Positions 14,176-57,531 of a stretch of DNA of 64,000 bases are shown here, piece after piece. Source of the DNA: Burkholderiaceae bacterium. GTDB taxonomy: Bacteria; Pseudomonadota; Gammaproteobacteria; Burkholderiales; Burkholderiaceae_E. Numbering within the stretch: the stretch's first letter is position 1; each line of letters opens with the position of its first letter. A program made the position numbers and the translations under genes. Where the stretch lies: the NCBI GenBank assembly GCA_027493945.1, contig JAOSJU010000001.1, positions 1,364,001-1,428,000 on the forward strand, written 5' to 3'. Under the pieces are notes generated by a model. It searched no databases, was not told the origin of the DNA, and worked only from the letters and a program-made list of their open reading frames with translations.

Positions 14176-14272
14176 TCCTTCGCTGGGAGGGCCGCTGGAA
14201 ACAGATCGACTCGGTGCAGTTGATCGGCAAGGACACGCGCTGACGGCCGGTGCGGCAGCAGGTGTCGCCGAG

Positions 14273-14937
14273 TTATTTGCCGTTGATCAGAGGCGTGAAG
14301 TTCAGTTTCTGGAACCTGTCGATCATGGTCTTTGCCATGACTTTGGCATCGGCCATGCCGGTGCTGATCCACAGATCGATCTTCAGTTGGGTGGCGCCAT
14401 TGCGCGCGAAGCCGCGCAGCACGGTGTTGATACCCTTGGGGTGGCCTGCACAGTCCTCGGTATACTCTATTGCCACGATGTGACCGCCGGGTACCTGCTC
14501 GTTCTGCAGGGTGCCGACGGTTTTCACGTGGGTGTTGCTCTTCCGCAGGCGGGCCACGTGCTCCGGCAGCAACGTCCGGGCCTGTGCGACGTCGGCCTCG
14601 AACATCTGCACCGCCATGTCCAGCATGGGCGGCTCCCCCACGCCGTGTCGCCCTTGATCTCGACCCGCAATTCCGGGCCGACCGTGAAATCGCACGACGA
14701 GGAAAACTTCGGGAAACCGGCGCGCATGCCTGCGGTGAAGGTCTTGCCGAATTCGGTCTTGAACACGCCCCAGGAACTGCTGGCGAGCGTGGCCGCCGCG
14801 GGCAGCAACGCCGCGATCTCACCGGGTACCTTGTCCGAGGCATTGGCGTGGCCGGCGAGGCAGGAGACCGCCGCCAGCAGCACCGCCCGGGCGCGCGCCG
14901 ATCGTGCCCACGTCATCGATGTACTGCCCGTCGTCAT
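14273..14937 (-). CDS. Secreted protein of unknown function (frameshifted)
   Basis: Starts MTTGSTSMTWARSARARAVL with AAGGAG seven bases upstream, followed by a signal peptide ending near AGHANA. The mature part reads SDKVPGEIAALLPAAATLAS and so on. The frame shifts near 14640 from KGDTAWG to PPMLDMAVQMFEADVAQART and ends at 14273, giving about 220 residues. The C-terminal half has an alternating hydrophobic pattern (HIVAIEYTEDCAGHPKGINT) but I recognise no family. Its ATG overlaps the stop of the frame upstream, so it may be transcribed with the toxin-antitoxin pair. Confidence 0.7.
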
Positions 14938-15554
14938 CCCGTTCTCCTTGCCTGCACGTCGCTGCCACGAATCGAGCGGAGTATAGGACCAGGTTTCGCT
15001 GGCATGGAGCGGCGCAGTGAAACCAAACCGCTCCATCGAAGCCAAGCGTTACGGCTTGATGCCAGCGGCGAACTGCTGCAAGCGCAGCCCTCGGCGCGCG
15101 CCTCGGCCAGCAACTGGCTCCAGTCGTTTGGCGGGTGGCCGCCTTCCAGCATCTTGCGGAATACGCGGTAGGCATCGTCGCTACTCTCGTAGGCGCGTTT
15201 GGTGTCCCCGTCGTTGACCCACGCAAACACGATCACCTTGCTGGGGGCGTGGTAGCGGAAGTAGAGCCGGTACTGCTGGAAGAACTTCGCCCGGAACCAG
15301 TGCTTGTGGTCGTCGCCCAAGGTGCTGCCTTGGCGGTACTCTGGTCGGGCCGGATCTTGCGGGATGACGTCGAAGGCGAGCCCGGTGATCGCCGCCAGCC
15401 GCTTGCTGGCGCTCTTCTTCACGTATCCGACCGGGTCTTTTTGCTTGAAGGCTTCGACCTGCCGCGCCAGCGCCTCAATCTGTGCGATGAACAGCGGGTG
15501 CGCGAAAATCGTCCATCCGTGGATGACCAAGGGCGTGGTTTTGCCCGCGCTCAT
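14934..15554 (-). CDS. yhaV: Type II toxin YhaV (ribonuclease)
   Basis: The N-terminal 155 residues are typical YhaV: VIHGWTIFAHPLFIAQIEAL, the conserved KSASKRLAAI, then DHKHWFRAKFFQQYRLYFRY. YhaV is a RelE-fold mRNA endoribonuclease neutralised by PrlF. The frame runs 206 residues, longer than the family (about 155). Near 15085 a one-base shift would instead give EGLRLQQFAAGIKP and a stop at 15049, which fits the family length better, so the last 45 residues are probably artefactual. The start overlaps the prlF stop. Confidence 0.88.
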   Translation of the reverse strand: MSAGKTTPLVIHGWTIFAHPLFIAQIEALARQVEAFKQKDPVGYVKKSASKRLAAITGLAFDVIPQDPARPEYRQGSTLGDDHKHWFRAKFFQQYRLYFRYHAPSKVIVFAWVNDGDTKRAYESSDDAYRVFRKMLEGGHPPNDWSQLLAEARAEGCACSSSPLASSRNAWLRWSGLVSLRRSMPAKPGPILRSIRGSDVQARRTG

Positions 15555-46166: not shown

Positions 46167-47299
46167 AGCCCGAGCTCCTGCAGCAGCACCGCGAACAGCG
46201 CGTCGAGCAGGATCACCGCGACGATGCCCTGCACGACCGTGGACGTGGTGTTGATCCCGATCGACCGGGTGTCGCGGCTCACCGACAGGCCCATGCGGCA
46301 GCCGATCACCGCGATGAACAGCGCGAACACCGGCGCCTTTACCAGCCCGATCACGAAATGACGCGGCGCGAGCGCGTCGTGCAAACGGTCCACGAAAGTG
46401 GCCGGCGTGATGTCGAGCATGCGCTCGGCGATGACGATCGCGCCCAGCGCTCCCATCAGGTCGCCGACGAACACCAGCAGCGGCAGCGACAGCACCAGCG
46501 CCAGCACGCGCGGCACCACCAGCACCTGCTCGGCCGACAGTCCGAGCGTGCGGATCGCGTCGATCTCCTCGGTGAGCTTCATCGTGCCCAGCTGCGCGGT
46601 GAACGCGGCGCCCGAGCGGCCGGCGACGATGGTGGCGACGATCAGCGGCGAGAACTCGCGCGCCAGCCCCAGCGCCACGCCGTCGACGACGAAGATGTTC
46701 GCCCCGAACTTCTCGGCCTGCAGGCCGAGCAGGTAGGCCACCACGAGGCCGATCAGGAAGCTCACCAGCGCGACCACCGGGATGGCGGTCACGCACACCT
46801 GGGCGAGTTGCGCGGCCAGCTCGCGGCGGCGCAGGATCGCCGGTCGCGCGACTGCGCGGGCCAGCCCGACGATCACGCGGCCGAGGAAGTCGAGGTGGCC
46901 GTGCAGCAGCTCCATCAGCTGCAGGCTCGACGCGCCGAGCTGGCCCAGGGCGCCGCGGGGGCGCTGCGGAGCGACCGGCTGCAGCTCGGGCAGCCGCTGG
47001 CGCACGAGCTCGACGATGCGCACCTGCGCGCCGCCGAAGCCGCGCAGGGCGACCTCCGCGGCCGGCACGCCGCCCTGCGCAAGATGGCGCCACAGCAGCA
47101 GGGCCGCCGCGGTGTCGATCTCCGCGAGGCGAGAACCCTCGACCGCGACCGGGCGGCGCCAGGCGCCGGCCGCGACCGGCAACGCGCGCAAGGCCGCGTC
47201 GAGCTCGGCAAGATGCGCCAGCCGCCAACTGCCCGCCAGCCGAAGCACGCTGCCATCGGCACCGTGCTCGAGCAGACAGCTGGCGTCGGCGGGGTTCAT
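46163..47299 (-). CDS. mlaE: MCE transporter permease MlaE with N-terminal STAS domain
   Basis: 378 residues. The first 100 form a STAS-like domain (LAGSWRLAHLAELDAALRAL; GSRLAEIDTAAALLLWRHLA). The rest is the MlaE permease with the classical FGANIFVVDGVALGLAREFS, PLIVATIVAGRSGAAFTAQL and GTMKLTEEIDAIRTLGL motifs and about five helices. The STAS fusion replaces the separate MlaB subunit of E. coli. First gene of the four-gene operon. Confidence 0.94.
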   Translation of the reverse strand: MNPADASCLLEHGADGSVLRLAGSWRLAHLAELDAALRALPVAAGAWRRPVAVEGSRLAEIDTAAALLLWRHLAQGGVPAAEVALRGFGGAQVRIVELVRQRLPELQPVAPQRPRGALGQLGASSLQLMELLHGHLDFLGRVIVGLARAVARPAILRRRELAAQLAQVCVTAIPVVALVSFLIGLVVAYLLGLQAEKFGANIFVVDGVALGLAREFSPLIVATIVAGRSGAAFTAQLGTMKLTEEIDAIRTLGLSAEQVLVVPRVLALVLSLPLLVFVGDLMGALGAIVIAERMLDITPATFVDRLHDALAPRHFVIGLVKAPVFALFIAVIGCRMGLSVSRDTRSIGINTTSTVVQGIVAVILLDALFAVLLQELGL

Positions 47300-47416
47300 C
47301 GCGCGGGCAACCGGGGCGGCGCAGTGTGGCCGTGGCGGGTCTCGTCAGCTTGGGACACTAACATAGGGGGCAGATGCGCACCGCAGGCTTGCGGCGCGCC
47401 GCGAACAGGGGACCCG

Positions 47417-48058
47417 GTGAGCGACGAGGCGGCTGCAGTTCCCGCATGGATGGCGTGGCGCCGGGCCGAGCGCAGCCGGCTGATCGCGGCGCGGCTGGCC
47501 ATGCCGGCCCGGGCACGGCGCGAATGCGCGCGCCTGATCGGCGCCGCGCTCGACCGCTTGCTGCCCGAGCCCGCCGGTCTGGTCGTCGCGGTCTACTGGC
47601 CGATCCGCGGCGAACCCGACCTGCGGGCGTGGATCGACTCGATCCGCAGCCGCGGCGCGCGTTGCGCCCTGCCGGTCGTCGCCGCCCGCGGCGCACCGCT
47701 CGTGTTTCGCGAATGGAGCGCCGACGCGCGCCTCGTTCCCGGCGTCTGGAACATCCCGGAGCCGGCAGACGGCGAAGCGCTCGCGCCGCAGGTAGTGATC
47801 GCCCCGCTGGTCGGCCACGACCGCCGCGGTTACCGCCTCGGCTATGGGGGCGGCTACTACGACCGCACCCTCGCCGCCTGCGCCGCGCGGCCCTTCGCGA
47901 TCGGCGTCGGCTACCGTGCCGCGGGGCTCGCCGGCTTCGAGCCGCAGCCGCACGACATCCCGATGGACGCGATCGTGCACGAGGGCGGAGCGAGCCTTCA
48001 CGGCCATGAAGATCCCACCAGGCTGCCCACTTTTGTGGTGGGACCTGAAAAGCCTTGA
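47417..48058 (+). CDS. 5-formyltetrahydrofolate cyclo-ligase
   Basis: 213 residues, GTG start (MSDEAAAVPAWMAWRRAERS). Substrate/ATP motif RLGYGGGYYDRTLAAC, and PQVVIAPLVGHDRRGYRLGY. It converts 5-formyl-THF to 5,10-methenyl-THF. It stands 57 bases before the methyltransferase/MetF-like module and near a formate-THF ligase, so three or more folate-C1 enzymes are clustered. Divergent from mlaE. Confidence 0.93.
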   Translation: MSDEAAAVPAWMAWRRAERSRLIAARLAMPARARRECARLIGAALDRLLPEPAGLVVAVYWPIRGEPDLRAWIDSIRSRGARCALPVVAARGAPLVFREWSADARLVPGVWNIPEPADGEALAPQVVIAPLVGHDRRGYRLGYGGGYYDRTLAACAARPFAIGVGYRAAGLAGFEPQPHDIPMDAIVHEGGASLHGHEDPTRLPTFVVGPEKP

Positions 48059-48115
48059 CATCCCACTGGCGATCCACTCAAATCGGTCGTCGATAGGCAA
48101 CAGGCTGGTACGGGT

Positions 48116-49523
48116 GTGCAGGTGGAGGCCGACACGCTGCTGCGCGAAATCGTCGAATACTGCCGCAGGGCAGGCGTCGCCGAGTCGACGTTCGGGCGAT
48201 TCGCGGTCAATGACGGCAAGTTCGTCAACCGGCTGCGCGACGGCGGGCGGATCACGACGGCCACCGCCGAGCGGGTGCGCCGCTTCATTGCCAACGACGC
48301 GCGCGCCGGCGCGCGCAACGGCCGCGGCTTCCTGATCGACGCGCCGCCCGGCGCGCCGCTGCCGATGCCGCGGATCGACCCGCAGGAACCACCAGCGCAC
48401 GCCGACCGCAATTTCCGCTTCTTCGACAACCGGCAGAAGTACCAGCTCTTCGTCAGTACCTGCTCCGAGAAAGCGGTGGTGGCGCAGCGCGTGGCGATGG
48501 AACTGGTCAACATCCACCCGACGCCGCCGGCGGTGCGCATCTTCGACGCCGGCTTCGGCGACGGCACGGTGCTGGTGCGCGTGATGCGCGCGATGCACAA
48601 GCGCTTCGCGACGATGCCGTTCTACATCGTCGGCAAGGAAATCAGCGTCGAGCACGTGAGGCTCACTCTCGAGAGGATGGCCGATCGCTTCTTCGAGCAT
48701 CCGGCCACGGTGCTCGTGCTCACCAACCTGAACTACACCGAAGCGCCGTCGCTGGCGCCGGCCTCGATGGCCGCGGCCACCACGCTCGTCTGGCACGAGG
48801 TCGCGCTCACCGGCGCCACTTCGCACGACTTCGAGGAGCAGATCGCCGCGCTCGGCCCGTTCCTCGCCGAGAACTGGCGCGTGAACATCGACCCGGCCAC
48901 CGGCAACCCGGTCTACGCGCGGCCGACGGTGCTGGTCCTGTATCGCGACGATCACCGCTTCCTGCTCGAATCGGTGATCCCGAAGCGCGGCGGCAGCGAG
49001 GCCGGCTACGACCTGGTCATCGCGTCGCAGCCGTACCGCGCGCGCGCCGACCTGCGCTTCAAGGCCTCGCGCGTGATCGCGCCGCTGGCGCGCAGCCTGG
49101 CTCCGGGCGGGCGGCTGCTGGCGATCCATTCGCGCGGCGACGATCCCGGACTCGGAGATCCTGCAGAAGATGTGGCCCGGCGAGAACCCGTTCGTCCACG
49201 ATCGCCACCAGATGCTCAAGGCGGTGAAGGAGGCGCTCGGCGCGGCTGCGCGCGGCCTGAATTTCAACGCCTATTCCGACGCGCGCTCGCTGTTCCGGTT
49301 CGACATGCACGCGCTGCCCACCGAGCTGTCGGCGTCGATCGGCACCTCGATGCTGTTCGCCGCCCGGAACGCCGCGATCTACGTCGGCCAGATCGACGAC
49401 GCGCGGCTCGAGAGCGCGATGGGCGACCGGCGCTACCTCGAGATCACCGGCGAGGTGCTGCACCGCTACAACGGGCTGTGGTTCCAGGACGAGTCGTACA
49501 TCATTTCGCGGCATCGCGACTGA
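48116..49523 (+). CDS. Class I methyltransferase-like protein, copy A (frameshifted)
   Basis: About 469 residues after joining near 49152 (GDDPG joins SEILQKMWPGENPFVHDRHQ). It has an N-terminal winged-helix-like segment (residues 1-65: LLREIVEYCRRAGVAESTFG), then a Rossmann methyltransferase domain with FDAGFGDGTVLVRVMRAMHK and a conserved NRQKYQLFV entry motif. It is a close paralogue of copy B, which lacks the N-terminal extension. A function cannot be assigned. It is followed after 11 bases by a MetF-like gene. GTG 48116 is used; GTG 48122 is possible. Confidence 0.8.
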
Positions 49524-49534
49524 AGGACGGGAGC

Positions 49535-50473
49535 ATGGATCTCGGGCACGCGACGGCAGGCGCTGCCGCTACGATCGCCGACACGAGTCTGCGCGAGGCC
49601 ATCGCGCGGCTCGCGCGCACCGCGTCGATCGAAACCTCCACCCGCAACGTGGCCGACGTCGCCGGCTACGCGCGGATGCTGCCGCCAGGCAGCGACGTCT
49701 ACATCACCTTCCTGCCCGGCACGCCGTACCACCACATCCTGAGCACGGCAACCCGGCTGCGGCAGGTCGGCCTGAATCCGGTGCCGCACCTGGCGGCGCG
49801 GCGGTTCGCGAGCGCGGCGGCGGTGGCCGACTTTCTCGCGCGGCTGCGCGACGAGGCCGGCGTCGCCCGCGTGCTGCTGGTGGCCGGCGACAGCGACGCC
49901 ACGGCCGGCCCGTTCGACTCGAGCCTGCAGGTGCTCGAGACCGGCGTGTTCGAGGCCTGCGGCATCCGCAGCATCGGCGTGGCCGGCTACCCGGAAGGCC
50001 ACCGGCGCATTTCGCAGCAGGCGCTCGACGATGCGCTCGAGCGCAAGACCCGCTACGCCGACGCGCACGGGCTCGAGCTGTTCGTCGTCTCGCAATTCTG
50101 CTTCGAGCCGCAGCGCGTGCTCGACTGGCTCGCGCGGCTGCGCGCGCGCGGCGTCACGCTGCCGGTGCGCGTCGGCGTGGCGGGCCCGGCCAGCGTGCGC
50201 ACGCTGCTCGCGTACGCGCTGCGCTGCGGAATCGGCGCCTCGATGAAGGCGCTGGGCTCCCAGCCGGTGTCGCTGAACCGCATGCTCGCGCGGCACGGCC
50301 CGGACGATCTCGCGCGCGCCGTCGCGCCGCAGGCCGACGCGCTCGGCGTCGCCGGGCTGCACCTGTTCGCCTTCGGCAATTTCGCCGACTCCGCGCAATG
50401 GATCCGCGAAACCGCGGCCGCCCGCGTCGGTCCCGAAAACGGCAGCGCCGGTTCCGACGCCGCCCGCGGCTGA
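49535..50473 (+). CDS. Short MetF-like methylenetetrahydrofolate reductase, copy A
   Basis: 312 residues from [20 protein letters not shown]. The TIM-barrel MetF pattern is visible: the catalytic-type Glu in ASIETSTRN, the [13 protein letters not shown] folate-side strand, [15 protein letters not shown] with the flavin-side Asp, then [20 protein letters not shown] and [20 protein letters not shown]. It is diverged from classical MetF but keeps its order of motifs. Paired with methyltransferase copy A and convergent with fhs (4-base gap). Confidence 0.85.
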
Positions 50474-50477
50474 GGGA

Positions 50478-52143
50478 TCAGAACAGCCCGACCACCTTGC
50501 CATCGACCAGGTCGATGCCGTCGGCCGACGGCACCTTCGGCAAGCCGGGCATCGTCATGATGTCGCCGCAGACCATCACCACGAAACCGGCTCCCGCCGC
50601 CAGGCGCACCTCGCGGATGTTCAGCACGTGCCCCTCGGGGGCGCCGCGCAATTTCGGGTCGGTGGAGAACGAATACTGCGTCTTGGCCACGCAGACCGGG
50701 AAGCGCCCGTAGCCGTCCTCCTGCAGCTTGCGGATGCGCGCGCGCACCTTGCTGTCGGCAGTGACTTCGGAGGCGCGATAGACCGTCTTCGCGACCTTTT
50801 CGATCTTCTGCCACAGCGGATCGTCGTCTTCGTAGACGAAGGCCGGCCGGCCCGGCGTGCCGCACAGCGCGACCACCGCGCGCGCGAGATCGGCGGCGCC
50901 GCGGCCGCCCTCGGCCCAGTGGTTCGCGGTGATCGTCTCGACGCCGAGCCTGGCCAGCCGCTCGCGCACCGCCTCGATCTCGTCGGCCGAATCGAAGGCG
51001 AAGCGGTTGATCGCCACCACCGCGGGCAGCCGGTAGACCTTGCGCAGGTTCTCGACGTGGCGCTCGAGGTTCGCCGGGCCCTTGGCGAGCGCCTTCATGT
51101 TCTCGTGGTCGAGTTCGCGCGGGTCGACTCCGCCGTGGTACTTGATCGCGCGGATCGTGGCGACGAGCACCGCGACGTCGGGCATCAGGCCGCTGCTGCG
51201 GCACTTGATGTCGAGGAACTTCTCGGCGCCGAGGTCGGCGCCGAAGCCCGCCTCGGTGACCACGTAGTCGGCCAGCTTCAGCGCCGAGCGCGTGGCGATC
51301 ACCGAATTGCAGCCGTGCGCGATGTTGCCGAACGGGCCGCCGTGGATCAGCGCGGGGTTGTTCTCCAGCGTCTGCACCAGGTTGGGCTTGAGCGCGTCCT
51401 TCAGCAGCACGGTCATCGCACCGTGGGCCTTCAGGTCGCGCGCGCGCACCGGGCGCCCGTCGCGGGTCGAGGCGACGACGATCTCGCCCAGCCGCGCCCT
51501 CAGGTCGTCGAGCGAAGTGGCCAGGCAGAAGATCGCCATCACCTCGGAAGCGACGACGATCTCGAAGCGATCTTCGCGCGGATACCCGTTCGCCGTGCCT
51601 CCGAGCCCCACCACGATCTCCCGCAGCGCCCGGTCGTTCATGTCGACGACGCGCCGCCACTCGATGCGGCGCGGATCGATGTCGAGCTCGTTGCCGTGCG
51701 CGATGTGGTTGTCGATCAGCGCCGCCAGCAGGTTGTTCGCGAGGCCGATCGCCGAGAAGTCGCCGGTGAAGTGCAGGTTGATGTCCTCCATCGGCACCAC
51801 CTGCGCGTGCCCCCGCCGGCCGCACCCCCTTCATGCCGAACACCGGCCCCATCGACGGCTCGCGCAGGCAGATCAGCGCCTTGCGGCCGATGCGGTTCAG
51901 CGCGTCTCCCAGGCCCACGGTGGTGGTCGTCTTGCCCTCGCCGGCCGGCGTCGGGCTGATCGCGGTGACCAGCACCAGCTTGCCGTCGGGGCGGTCGCGC
52001 AGCGACGCCAGGTAATCGAGCGAGATCTTCGCCTTGTAGTGGCCGTAGGACTCGACGTGCTCCTCGGGAATGCCGAGCTTCTCGAGGGCGATGCGCGAGA
52101 TGCGCTGCATCTTCGCGGCCTGCGCGATCTGGATGTTCGACAC
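50478..52143 (-). CDS. fhs: Formate-tetrahydrofolate ligase Fhs (frameshifted)
   Basis: About 556 residues after repair. The start is GTG 52143 ([20 protein letters not shown]). ATP loop [20 protein letters not shown]; after [11 protein letters not shown] two one-base deletions near 51808-51832 break the frame, which resumes as [20 protein letters not shown]. Further signatures [20 protein letters not shown] and [17 protein letters not shown]. It makes 10-formyl-THF from formate and ATP. The start codon touches a three-unit octamer repeat that occupies the ribosome-binding region. Confidence 0.94.
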
Positions 52144-52166
52144 GGTGACTCGGTGACTCGGTGACT
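52143..52166. repeat. Octamer tandem repeat at the fhs start
   Basis: CGGTGACT is repeated three times, followed by a degenerate fourth unit (CGGTAGCT). It spans the region where the fhs ribosome binding site should be, between the metA stop and the fhs GTG. No Shine-Dalgarno sequence is visible there. Confidence 0.75.
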
Positions 52167-52173
52167 CGGTAGC

Positions 52174-53116
52174 TCAGAAATCGGCGTGCATGGCGCCCGC
52201 CGGAATATCGCCCGGGTGGAACGGGGGTGACCTGGTAGACGAGATAGTTCAGCCAGTTCGCGAACAGCAGGTTCGCGTGGCCGCGCCAGCGCACCAGCGG
52301 CGGGCGCGACGGATCGTCGTCCGGGTAATAGTTGCGCGGCACGTCGATCGGCAGGCCCCTGGCGACGTCGCGGTCGTATTCGGCCTTCAGCGTGAGCGGA
52401 TCGTACTCGGAGTGGCCGGTGACGAAGACGTGCCTGCCGTCGCTGGAGCCCACGAGATAGACGCCCGCGTCGTCGGATTCGGCGAGGATCGCGACCTCGC
52501 GGACCCGTTCGATGTCGGCGCGGCGCACCTCGGTGTGCCGCGAATGCGGCGCGAGGAAGACGTCGTCGAAGCCGCGCAGCAGCCGGTCGGTGGGCGCGAG
52601 CGTGCGATGCTCGAACACGCCGAACATCTTGCGCGGCAGCGGGTGCTTCGGGATGCCGTAGCGGCGATACAGCGCCGCCTGCGCGCCCCAGCAGATGTTC
52701 ATCGTCGAGGAGACCGCCTCGTCGGCCCAGTCGATGATCGCCGCGACCTCGGGCCAGTAATCGACCTCCTCGAACGGCATCTGCTCGACCGGCGCGCCGG
52801 TGATCACGAGACCGTCGAACTTCTCGTGGCGCACCTGCTCGAACGTGGAGTAGTGCTCGAGCAGGTGCTCGGCCGCCACGTTCTTCGACTCATGGGTGGC
52901 GGTGTGCAGCAGCGTCACGTCGATTTGCAGCGGGGTGTTGCCGAGCAGCCGAAGCAGCTGCGTCTCGGTGGCGACCTTCGTCGGCATCAGGTTGAGGATC
53001 GCCACGCGCATCGGACGGATGTCCTGGCGCGCGGCGCGCTCCTCGCCCATCACGAAGACGTTCTCGCGCTCGAGCACGGCTCGGGCGGGGAGCGTCGACG
53101 GGATCCTGACCGGCAT
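52174..53116 (-). CDS. metA: Homoserine O-acyltransferase, MetA family (frameshifted near C-terminus)
   Basis: About 313 residues; starts [20 protein letters not shown]. Catalytic Cys in [16 protein letters not shown], and the His-Glu region [20 protein letters not shown]. This is the MetA fold, which acylates homoserine with succinyl- or acetyl-CoA. Near 52222, in a run of five G, the frame slips; the other frame gives [18 protein letters not shown] and a stop at 52174. Read straight through it would fuse to the fhs region, an artefact. Whether it prefers succinyl or acetyl cannot be told here. Confidence 0.92.
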
Positions 53117-53181
53117 GATCGGCTCCGGCTACGGCCTTTTTCGCGTCGGGCGGGTGCGCAACGCCCCCGCCTCGACCCTGC

Positions 53182-54473
<1,292 letters not shown>

Positions 54474-54508
54474 CGAACGTCCCCTTGTGAATGTGGTTCG
54501 TAAACGGG

Positions 54509-55408
54509 TCAGCCGCTCGCCATATTAGCCGGCTCCTCCGCGCTGCGGGAGAGCCATTGCGCCGTCGGGGTCATGCCGCCGAACGCGAACAGGTGCAGCG
54601 AGAGCGGATCGAGCGCCGGATGGGCCAGGCGCGCCCTGGCGACCTCGCGGATCACCTCCGCCGGATCGTGGGTCGCGGCGAGCCGGGTCAGCGAGCCGAG
54701 CCGCCCCTTCAGCGCCCGCAGCGAGTTGCCGATGCCGCACTGCACACCCAGCTTGAGCAGCCGCGCGACCGAGGTCGGCCCGGCCACCCCGATGCGCAGC
54801 GGCAAGTCGACGCCGCCAGCGCGCAGCTCGCCCGCCCAGCGGGCAATCTGCGCGCCGTCGAAGCAGAACTGCGACACCACGAACAACCGCAGCCCGTGGC
54901 TTCGCGCATGGCCGAGCTTGAGCTCGAGATCCTCGCGCAGGACCGCGTCGGGGATCCGCGGATGGCCCTCCGGATAGCCGCAGACGCCCGCCTGCGCGAA
55001 GCCGCAGTCCTGCGGCAGCCCGCTGCGCAGCAACTCGAGGCTCGAGCGGAACGGGCCGGCGGGCTCGCGCAGGTCTCCGCCCACCAGCAGCACCGCTTCC
55101 GCGCCGCGCCGGCGCAGCTCGCCCAACAGCTCGCGGGCCGCGGCAGCGCTGGCGAGGCGTCGCGCCACCACGTGCGGCACTGGCGCCAGGCCCAGTTCGC
55201 GCGCGCGCGAGGTCGCGGCGATCATCGCCGGTGCGCCGAGATTCGGGGTCCACGGGATGAACACCTGGCGCCCCTTCGCCAGAGCAACCGCGTGGTCCAG
55301 TTCGCGCGCGGCAATCTCGACCGAGGCACCGGACAGCAGTTCGCGCACGGCCGCGGCGACGCCGGGAGTCCGGGACGGGGATGTGGATGGGGATGAGGAC
55401 GGCATCAT
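54509..55408 (-). CDS. Short MetF-like methylenetetrahydrofolate reductase, copy B
   Basis: 299 residues from [20 protein letters not shown]. Same motif order as copy [106 protein letters not shown]. Clearly paralogous to copy A though diverged. Its start is 26 bases from the end of a 278-bp inverted-repeat element that separates it from methyltransferase copy B. Confidence 0.87.
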
Positions 55409-55433
55409 GTTCGCGGCCTGCCGCGGCGAGTCG

Positions 55434-55711
55434 CTAGTGTCGTGAGTTGCAAATACGTGGCGTCGAGACGGGTCGAAACGGCGTGGGAACAAGGCGCGCG
55501 AGTGGGTCGATACCGGGTGGTATCGACCCGCTTGCGCAACGCAGTGCCCACGCCGTTTCGACCCGCCCCGCAGGGGTTCGACCAGACGGCGCCCTCGCAC
55601 GCCCGACCGCCATGGCAGATACCACCCGGTATCTGCCATGGCGGATCGGCCGCACGATCATCACCGTCTGGTCGAATCTCGACACCACGCATTTGCAACT
55701 CACGACACTAG
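55434..55711. mobile_element. 278-bp TA-flanked inverted-repeat element (candidate IS630-type MITE)
   Basis: Terminal inverted repeats of about 35 bp start CTAGTGTCGTGAGTTGCAAA at both ends with two mismatches. CTAG at each end fits TA duplication, and the first bases resemble the IS630 ends at 8080 and 9246. Inside are two long hairpins whose tips are GATACC-GGGT-GGTATC and its exact reverse complement, plus a small CCCCGCAGGGG stem, so the whole could fold as a cloverleaf. It codes for nothing convincing. Its right CTAG supplies the TAG stop of methyltransferase copy B. Confidence 0.75.
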
Positions 55712-56890
55712 AAGCTGCGGCGCCGCGAGATGCCGAAGGCCTCGTCCCAGAACCACAGGCCCCCGTGCCGGCGCAGGACCTCGCGGGTGACTTCGAGATA
55801 GCGGCCCGAGGCGAGCGCCTGCTCGAGCCGGGCATCCTCGATCTGCCCCACGTAGACCGCCGCGTTCCGGGGCCGCGAACAGCGTCGAGGTGCCGATCGA
55901 ACCCTCGATTTCGGCCGGCAGCGTGTGCATCTCGTGCCGGAACAGCGCGCGCTCCTCGGGATTGGCGCTGAAGTTGAACGACCTCGCCGCCGGGCCGAGC
56001 GCCTCGCGCACCGCCTTGAGCACCTGGTGGCGGTCGTGGACGAACGGATTCTCGCCGGGCCAGACACCCTGCAGGATCTCCTGGCCCGGGTCGGCGCCGT
56101 GCGACTGCACGATCAGCAGGCGCCCGTCCGGGCCGAGCGCCTTCGCCAGCGGGGCGAGCACGCGCGAAGCCTTGAACTCGAGCGGCGCGCGCAGCCGGTA
56201 GGGCTGCGACGCGATGACCAGGTCGTAGTCGGCACGCGTCGAGCCGCGTCGCGGAATCACCGAGTTGAGCAGGAAGCGGTGGTCTTCGCGATAGATCACC
56301 AGCACCGCCGGCCGCTCGTAGCCGAGCGCGCCGGTGGCCTTGTTCACCACGGTGCCCCAGTTCCCGGCGAGCAGCGGCTGCAGGTCGGTGATCTGCTTCT
56401 CGAACTCGCGCGCGGTGGTGCCGGTGAGCGCGACCTCGTGCCAGTTCAGCGTCGAGGCGGCGGTGACCGACTGCGGGTTCAGCCACGGCGCTTCGCGGTA
56501 GTAGAGGTTGGTGATCACCAGCACCGTCGACGGGTGCTCGAAGAAGCGGTCGGGCGTCTTCTCGAGCGTCAGCCGCACGTCCTCGAGGCTGATCTCCTTG
56601 GCGACGACGTAGAACGGCAAGGTCGGATAACGCAGGTGCATCGAGCGCATCACGCGCGTGAGCACCGTGCCGTCGCCGACGCCCGCGTCGAACATCCGGA
56701 TCGCCGGCGGCTTCGGATGGATGTTCTGCAGTTCGCGCTCGACCCGTTCGGCCACCGCCCATTTCTCGGTGCAGGTGTTCACGAACATCAGGTACTTCTG
56801 GCGATTGTCGTAGAAGCGGAAGCTGGTTCGGGAATCGCCGTCGATCGGCGCCACGTCGCGTTCGACCAGTGCTGCGCTCGATGTCTGCAT
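55708..56890 (-). CDS. Class I methyltransferase-like protein, copy B (frameshifted)
   Basis: About 394 residues, starting MQTSSAALVERDVAPIDGDS with AGGAGG eight bases upstream. Motif I FDAGVGDGTVLTRVMRSMHL; entry motif FYDNRQKYLMFVNTCTEKWA; shared KEISLEDVRLTLEKTPDRFF, YDLVIASQPYRLRAPLEFKA and WPGENPFVHDRHQVLKAV. Near 55875 (GTSTLFAA to RNAAVYVGQIEDARLEQALA) one base shifts the frame. Same family as copy A without its N-terminal domain. A divergent spacer of 189 bp separates it from the MaoC-like gene. Confidence 0.82.
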
Positions 56891-57079
56891 GCTGCGATCC
56901 CTCCTGCGTGGCCGCTCCTGCCGGACGATTCAATCGGCGCGGTGCGCCAGTGTCAACCCACTTCGAACCCACGCGGATAATGGGAAGATTCTTGGGCTCC
57001 CTCCCCGCGAAGTGGGAACCGGACACGACTTTTCGGGCGAGAATGGGCGCCCGAACGAACCGACCGCAAAGGCAGCCCG

Positions 57080-57531
<452 letters not shown>

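Follow-up and report, generated by a model that had tools for sequence, protein, structure and literature searches.

A methyltransferase-fold protein and its MetF-like partner in a candidate one-carbon module linking folate and S-adenosylmethionine

Introduction

Published work describes the methylenetetrahydrofolate reductase (MTHFR, MetF) of Sphingobium lignivorans SYK-6 as an enzyme that oxidises methyl-tetrahydrofolate (methyl-THF) and as the partner of LigM (PMC13001107; PMC12585457). Atu1418 of Agrobacterium fabrum is given as 29% identical to SYK-6 MetF and is placed in a ferulate region together with a THF-dependent demethylase (PMC7797058). For growth on chloromethane, purU and metF are stated to be essential, methyl-THF being oxidised via MetF and PurU to formate (PMC3621897). 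Here we analyse a locus in a 64,000-nucleotide stretch of a Burkholderiaceae genome (GCA_027493945.1, contig JAOSJU010000001.1, positions 1,364,001–1,428,000; the window), which is part of a 4.28 Mb assembly of 4 contigs. In this locus two genes for a protein with the fold of S-adenosylmethionine (SAM) methyltransferases (MT), each with a short MetF-like gene, lie on opposite strands around fhs, metA and metY. The pairing of MT with a MetF-like gene recurs in relatives far beyond chance, and the context supports well a one-carbon (C1) module joining folate and SAM. The original prediction, made from the DNA letters, spoke of an inverted duplication and of an undescribed C1-transfer system; what it observed was confirmed in part, and its interpretation is partly supported.

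Results

Relatives of MT were collected by a tblastn scan of genome contigs, which gave at least 497 confirmed stretches; the best 80 were kept. Neighbours were counted in 81 loci (the best 80 minus L038, which is the same locus as L017, plus L024 and L017) within 9 kb of MT, and a MetF-like gene was scored as adjacent when it lay on the same strand, at most 600 nt 3′ of MT. A MetF-like gene follows MT in this way in 64 of the 75 loci that have at least 1.1 kb of downstream sequence, so that the two-gene unit put forward in the original prediction held up in this tabulation. The order MT, metK, sahH and then MetF was found in L041, L042 and L049; metK and sahH also follow MT in L040 and L055, which end early. 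Six loci (L034, L037, L058, L071, L084 and L098) have neither MetF nor metK-sahH, L058 ending 1.3 kb past MT.

Genes for core MetE (MetE-type proteins without the folate domain, PF01717) are present near MT in 31 of the 81 loci, metK in 6, sahH in 5 and fhs in 2. Protocatechuate dioxygenase and gentisate-type dioxygenase genes were each found in 15, feruloyl-CoA-synthetase-like genes in 12 and a LigM-like gene (GCV_T) in 6 loci. For PcaH, PcaG, GCV_T, PF01717, AMP-binding, cupin and AdoHcyase, a single representative of each has Pfam support, and the other names were given by eye. Expected numbers were derived from whole-genome counts for 37 loci, 35 of which, with 7 kb on both sides, were used. 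Core MetE was observed near MT in 17 of 35 loci versus 2.1 expected, and a gentisate-dioxygenase-like gene in 8 versus 0.43 expected; the P values treat the loci as independent though they are related, and kinship is uncorrected. The protocatechuate setting is confined to a Pseudolabrys-like clade, and the gentisate setting occurs in three parts of the tree. The neighbouring PF01717 proteins (about 370 residues) carry the Zn motifs (HxC, E, C) in 52 of 53 cases, the exception being a 256-residue open reading frame (ORF), and all six Zn and homocysteine motifs were matched by pattern in 35 of the 53. The core MetE of L138, the one protein tested, falls in NF005085/PRK06520.

In seven loci that are uncut or nearly so (L068, L074, L076, L081, L089, L090 and L097), four core MetE genes stand consecutively or nearly so after MT-MetF, inside pcaHG/thiolase-type clusters; their products are 47–58% identical to the L024 protein. 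This multiplication suggests several methyl-donor substrates. The genomes of L067 and L042 (G167 and G155) each have at least 39 PF01717 matches, far above the need of methionine synthesis. Spread by plasmids was set aside, as the one MT queried by tblastn had no match in PLSDB.

Five of the MetF-like partners resemble 7xg9, which we take to be the SYK-6 MTHFR. With phmmer, MetF-A of the window matched 7xg9 at an E value of 8e-57 versus 2e-10 for the next MTHFR, and MetF-B at 4.7e-43 versus 1e-5. The corresponding values were 5e-56 versus 1e-7 for the partner in L093, 2.5e-62 versus 3e-7 in L130 and 1.7e-46 versus 1e-4 in L134, and all five proteins are nearer to 7xg9 than to the MTHFRs of E. 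coli and Thermus. Motif patterns for MetF were judged too crude (30 of 55 proteins matched all four) and were set aside.

The model of the congener MT protein has a Rossmann-like SAM-methyltransferase fold, as in class I enzymes, and the nearest folds are those of small-molecule methyltransferases (HNMT, SABATH, TmtA/GtmA). Across 102 MT domains 111 columns are at least 97% identical. They include D142, G144, G146, D147, G148 and E173, a glycine-rich motif and the acidic residue after strand 2, which from their position would belong to the SAM motif. The blocks NRQKY, FDAGxGDGTVL and RPxVLVxYRxDHRFLL, listed in the original prediction as shared by both copies, are present. Neither the pieces of MT-A and MT-B nor intact relatives scored above the cut-off of any Pfam or NCBIfam family, and the MT gene family is unnamed in the libraries searched. 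GCV_T (PF01571) was not matched by the MT-A and MT-B pieces at E values up to 5, nor by five intact MTs at E values up to 0.1.

The N-terminus of MT is all-helical in the model, without strands, and resembles the lambda-repressor-like (XRE/POU) helix-turn-helix (HTH); the fold matches have modest scores, the domain being small, and include HppE, an enzyme with a fused HTH. No Pfam HTH family was found in five intact MTs. Only copy A in the window carries this extra domain, as had been foreseen, but it is not the winged helix proposed: the winged-helix ArsR-type domain of SahR/SamR was not found in the all-helical N-terminal model of MT. Among the 80 MT rows of close relatives, which include one locus twice (L017, L038), the HTH was detected by pattern in 79 and by eye in the remaining row (L036). 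MTs without HTH that keep their partners are found in two or more distinct regions of the tree, namely MT-B with MetF-B and L130, L140, L142 and L144; this statement leaves out L032 and L037, which lack the HTH by a strict pattern and have it by another. L147 is likewise HTH-less by one pattern and HTH-bearing by a laxer one.

An even draw of Pseudomonadota genomes contained MT in 14 of 299, the window's own included (13 of 298 others), and 14 loci were fetched from these other 13 MT-positive genomes, except G293 and G340. MT-MetF was found in L132, L134 and L137, and MT-metK-sahH in L135, L138, L139 and, with metK recognised by motif only, in L136; in L133 a metK after MT was likewise recognised by motif. 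Core MetE lies upstream of MT, directly in L135 and with one ORF between in L136, L138 and L139. L130 has the operon MT-metK-ahcY-MetF-like-purU, in which metK, ahcY and PurU exceed NCBIfam equivalog cut-offs. The family of G401, perhaps sphingomonad-like, has MT in 14 of 298 genomes. Sixteen further stretches gave MT-MetF in L140 and L142 and MT-metK followed by the contig end in L144 and L151; L148 and L150 are cut, and L146, L152–L155 and the second copies L141, L143, L145, L147 and L149 have other neighbours. Conserved adjacency to unrelated genes, named beforehand as speaking against a C1 role, was mostly not seen, but the divergent L126–L129 and L131 and the members of family f81 differ. 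The partner rule of MT is strong, not universal.

Several of the divergent members have surroundings of their own, most of them named by eye. An HTH-less subgroup in f81 (L131, L153, L154:9915-13657 and L155:9958-13620) lies near cysteine-desulfurase-like genes, not C1 genes; two such genes stand in tandem in L154 and L155, and L155 also has a small ferredoxin-like ORF. L129, L141, L143 and L149 hold second MT copies that bear the HTH and are surrounded by genes of catabolic appearance, among them flavin-reductase-like genes and, in several, a luciferase-like monooxygenase. L126 encodes a divergent MetK (14223-15407; 36% identical to L049 MetK; TIGR01034 322 bits, cut-off 309) on the opposite strand, about 3 kb from a lone MT.

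In the genus of the window MT, fhs and metA are shared by one set of 8 among the 18 genomes, with no match in the other 10; canonical MetF is present in 17 and PF02574 in 15 of the 18. Identical sets of 8 in 18 would arise by chance 1 time in 43758 under independence of the genomes, an assumption that does not hold. Among the 81 loci, fhs was found within 9 kb of MT only in L017, from a congener, and in L039, and the placing of fhs-metA-metY between two MT-MetF units is special to this genus. MT-B is present in six congener loci, and MetF-B adjoins it in five, not in L021. Elsewhere in the genome of the window lie a MetH-type gene (PF02574, open frame 1113) and one for a canonical MetF, and on this ground the idea that MT is the missing methionine synthase of the locus was rejected. 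Its core MetE is one YxjG-type protein with Zn motifs (C1:1889895), not linked to the MT locus; the remaining PF01717 matches of this genome resemble other families by eye.

The layout originally described was confirmed, with MTHFS, MT-A and MetF-A on the plus strand and fhs, metA, metY, MetF-B and MT-B on the minus strand. MTHFS (5-formyl-THF cyclo-ligase, 47417–48058, named by eye from the sequence) lies directly upstream of MT-A; a congener protein aligns by tblastn over 47417–48055 with 86% identity, and the gene also precedes MT-A in congener loci L017–L020 and L023, not being listed in L021. MT-A, with the N-terminal HTH, spans 48116–49523 and is followed by MetF-A (49535–50473; PF02219 28.7 bits, cut-off 24). 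On the other strand are fhs (formate-THF ligase, 50478–52143; NF010030 685 bits on the larger piece, cut-off 652), metA (homoserine O-acetyltransferase, 52196–53116; NF047918 478.7 bits, cut-off 460.5) and metY (O-acetylhomoserine sulfhydrylase, 53129–54473; TIGR01326 393.6 bits for the first piece only, below the whole-protein cut-off of 495.1). The 3′ end of metA is provisional, as the alignment to the congener stops at 52196, at residue 307 of 313. MetF-B covers 54509–55408, its ATG start being chosen to fit the congeners (PF02219 22.7 bits, just below the cut-off of 24), and MT-B, without HTH, 55708–56890.

This gene set is real, but five changes of reading frame had gone unmentioned. By tblastn comparison with the congener there is one break in MT-A (near 49146–49153), one in fhs (near 51781–51812), two in metY (near 53722–53727 and 53418–53432) and one in MT-B (near 55866–55871). 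The same genes are open in congeners: MT-A and MT-B have 406–498 residues, fhs has 556 in the six uncut loci, and the metY ORF has 429 in 4 of 6 loci and is longer in the other 2. The breaks are most likely assembly errors. The assembly probably holds many indel errors, so that disrupted genes elsewhere in it call for caution. Between MT-B and MetF-B there is a palindromic element of 278 bp (55434–55711) that resembles a miniature inverted-repeat transposable element. It has terminal inverted repeats of 48 nt (83% complementary) and inner perfect arms of 17 nt; the 16-nt word at its two termini has no occurrence elsewhere in the window, and a 9-nt word from the element had one match among six congener loci (L020), distant from this site. 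Control by a riboswitch was set aside: no Rfam match at gathering score was found in the window or in 8 relative loci, and none at E values up to 0.5 in 47000–57200.

A recent segmental inverted duplication was set aside as the origin of the two MT-MetF units, and the word duplication applies to them loosely. In the congener locus L017 the two MTs are 66% identical over 370 residues and the two MetF-like proteins 41%, with 71% DNA identity over 1.8 kb; the trees also place the copies apart. In the tree of 80 MTs the MT-B sequences group together with full support, on a long stem. In a tree of 56 rows MT-A joins L033 (100/98), grouping with other betaproteobacterial MTs apart from MT-B, and MT-B joins L029 (89/85, below the starred support level).

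Discussion

The pairing of MT with MetF is real and recurrent, and probably functional. MT shares operons with MetK and SahH and is therefore tied to SAM and S-adenosylhomocysteine (SAH); it shares operons with a 7xg9-type MTHFR and is therefore tied to methyl-THF; the presence of fhs here and of purU in L130 indicates a flow toward formate. The link between folate and SAM in the original prediction is well supported by context (MetF-like, metK(-sahH), core MetE, purU/fhs and the genus pattern), whereas the part given to homocysteine rests on metA/metY here and on core MetE/SahH elsewhere. Tentatively, and with less than even confidence, we favour the reading of the locus as a methyl-oxidation module in which MT moves the methyl group of SAM to THF. 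MT would form SAH and 5-methyl-THF from SAM and a presumed acceptor, THF; the MetF-like protein would oxidise 5-methyl-THF to methylene-THF, and housekeeping FolD would make 10-formyl-THF. Formate would be released by Fhs in reverse with ATP gain in this genus, or by PurU in L130, and SahH and MetK would close the SAM side of the cycle. Homocysteine would be the methyl carrier, loaded in other loci by core MetE; the donor may be methoxylated aromatics, which the tandem core MetE copies beside ring-cleavage genes suggest. In this genus homocysteine may come from MetA/MetY. Corynebacterium MetY can use methanethiol or methanol, and MetY acting on one of these is a possible methyl entry here. The fullest form of the proposal makes MT the first S-adenosylmethionine:tetrahydrofolate N5-methyltransferase and, together with core MetE, MetK, SahH, an oxidising MTHFR and Fhs/PurU, a member of a cobalamin-independent methyl-oxidation cycle, in which homocysteine and SAM, not a corrinoid or a GCV_T demethylase, would feed the folate pool with methyl groups taken from methoxylated or methylated compounds; this form we hold to be unlikely, though its chance is substantial.

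The main uncertainty is the acceptor of MT, and a number of observations weigh against THF in this role or against a fixed module. The nearest folds act on histamine, xanthines, carboxylic acids and thiols, and our literature search turned up no SAM-dependent THF methyltransferase. With MetH alone the proposed MT reaction would make an ATP-wasting cycle. Eleven of the 75 loci lack an adjacent MetF, 8 of them having none in the locus (some are cut short), and L126–L129, L131, L146 and L152–L155 have neither MetF nor metK directly downstream. The MTHFR of L049 falls outside the 7xg9 type, and G012 (the genome of L021) has MT-B without MetF-B. G014, which is 97% complete, has MT and no PF01717 match; core MetE is therefore not always the entry, and other methyl entries must exist. 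The congeners are related, and the shared pattern of MT, fhs and metA may reflect one gain or loss. In L130 the MetF-like protein, run as a reductase, could supply methyl-THF, so that MT is not the sole candidate; MT as the source fits better, since purU lies downstream and the MTHFR is of the oxidising type.

A rival reading makes MT an ordinary small-molecule SAM methyltransferase, acting for example on an aromatic acid, amine or thiol, in an operon with private SAM regeneration (MetF, core MetE, MetK, SahH). This is a serious possibility, if a doubtful one: the closest folds (HNMT, SABATH, TmtA/GtmA) are of this kind, metK and sahH lie directly downstream in several loci, and a methyl cycle in the forward direction, with the MetF-like protein as reductase, would use the same genes. 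Disposal of C1 units is indicated, however, by fhs in this genus and by purU in the L130 operon, and MetF-A, MetF-B and three further partners (L093, L130, L134) match the oxidising SYK-6 enzyme best. The ring-cleavage and feruloyl-CoA-synthetase-like genes near MT would agree with a demethylase that passes a methyl group from a methoxylated aromatic to SAH or THF; SAM or methyl-THF would result, and the MetF-like protein would oxidise the methyl-THF. A LigM-like gene is found in none of the 15 gentisate-type loci, which fits such an activity; in the six MT loci that carry one, however, the LigM-like gene would be redundant, the protocatechuate setting is restricted to one clade, and passing a methyl group from an aryl ether to SAH is expected to be energetically unfavourable. 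We consider a demethylase improbable.

More improbable still is an island for methionine biosynthesis (metA, metY, fhs, MTHFS) that carries unrelated genes along. That metA, metY and fhs are standard enzymes and that fhs is so rarely near MT would fit an island, yet canonical MetF and a MetH-type gene are encoded elsewhere in the genome, and MT-MetF pairs recur in very different neighbourhoods. The HTH and the position of MT ahead of its partner genes raise the further thought of a SahR-like regulator that senses SAM/SAH and controls its own operon, and SahR regulons are described as including ahcY, metF and metK (PMC4239095). To this we give the smallest chance of all, as MTs without HTH keep their partners in at least two parts of the tree, the MT domain is highly invariant, and HTH domains are also fused to enzymes such as HppE.

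The MT family is widespread and unusually invariant, and its tested members are without a Pfam or NCBIfam model. Its genes usually stand beside one for a relative of an enzyme that oxidises the methyl group of methyl-THF, or beside those that make and recycle SAM; this suggests a way of oxidising methyl groups that has yet to be described, and the methyl groups may come from plant aromatic compounds. Transfer of methyl groups from SAM to folate, if true, would join SAM to C1 oxidation by a link so far missing, and possibly provide a cobalamin-free route for the methyl groups of lignin-type aromatics. Even if it fails, a methyltransferase in an operon with metK, ahcY, MetF and purU raises a question of substrate that can be tested directly.

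Among known systems, SahR is a winged-helix ArsR-type domain fused to a methyltransferase-like domain. MT resembles SahR/SamR in combining a DNA-binding-type domain with a methyltransferase-like domain that presumably binds SAM and in its link to SAM-cycle genes, and is set apart from that architecture by its lambda-repressor-like, dispensable HTH. The core methionine synthases (MesA-D) are approached, by motif, by the PF01717 neighbours, which keep the Zn and mostly the homocysteine motifs; these neighbours differ in the assignment of the L138 protein to NF005085/PRK06520 and in their up to four tandem copies. With the chloromethane pathway (CmuA/CmuB, MetF2, FolD, PurU) the L130 operon shares a MetF-like gene and purU, here together with MT, but the proposed methyl source is SAM, not chloromethane via a corrinoid. 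The LigM-S6MTHFR system of SYK-6, also represented by Atu1420-Atu1418 in A. fabrum, is similar in the sequence of its MTHFR, in the aromatic-catabolic setting of many MT relatives, and in fhs, which is ligH in SYK-6 and stands beside the module in this genus. It differs in that MT, whose fold is that of SAM methyltransferases, does not match GCV_T, that the partners of MT are SAM-cycle genes and core MetE, and that only 6 of 81 MT loci have a LigM-like gene nearby.

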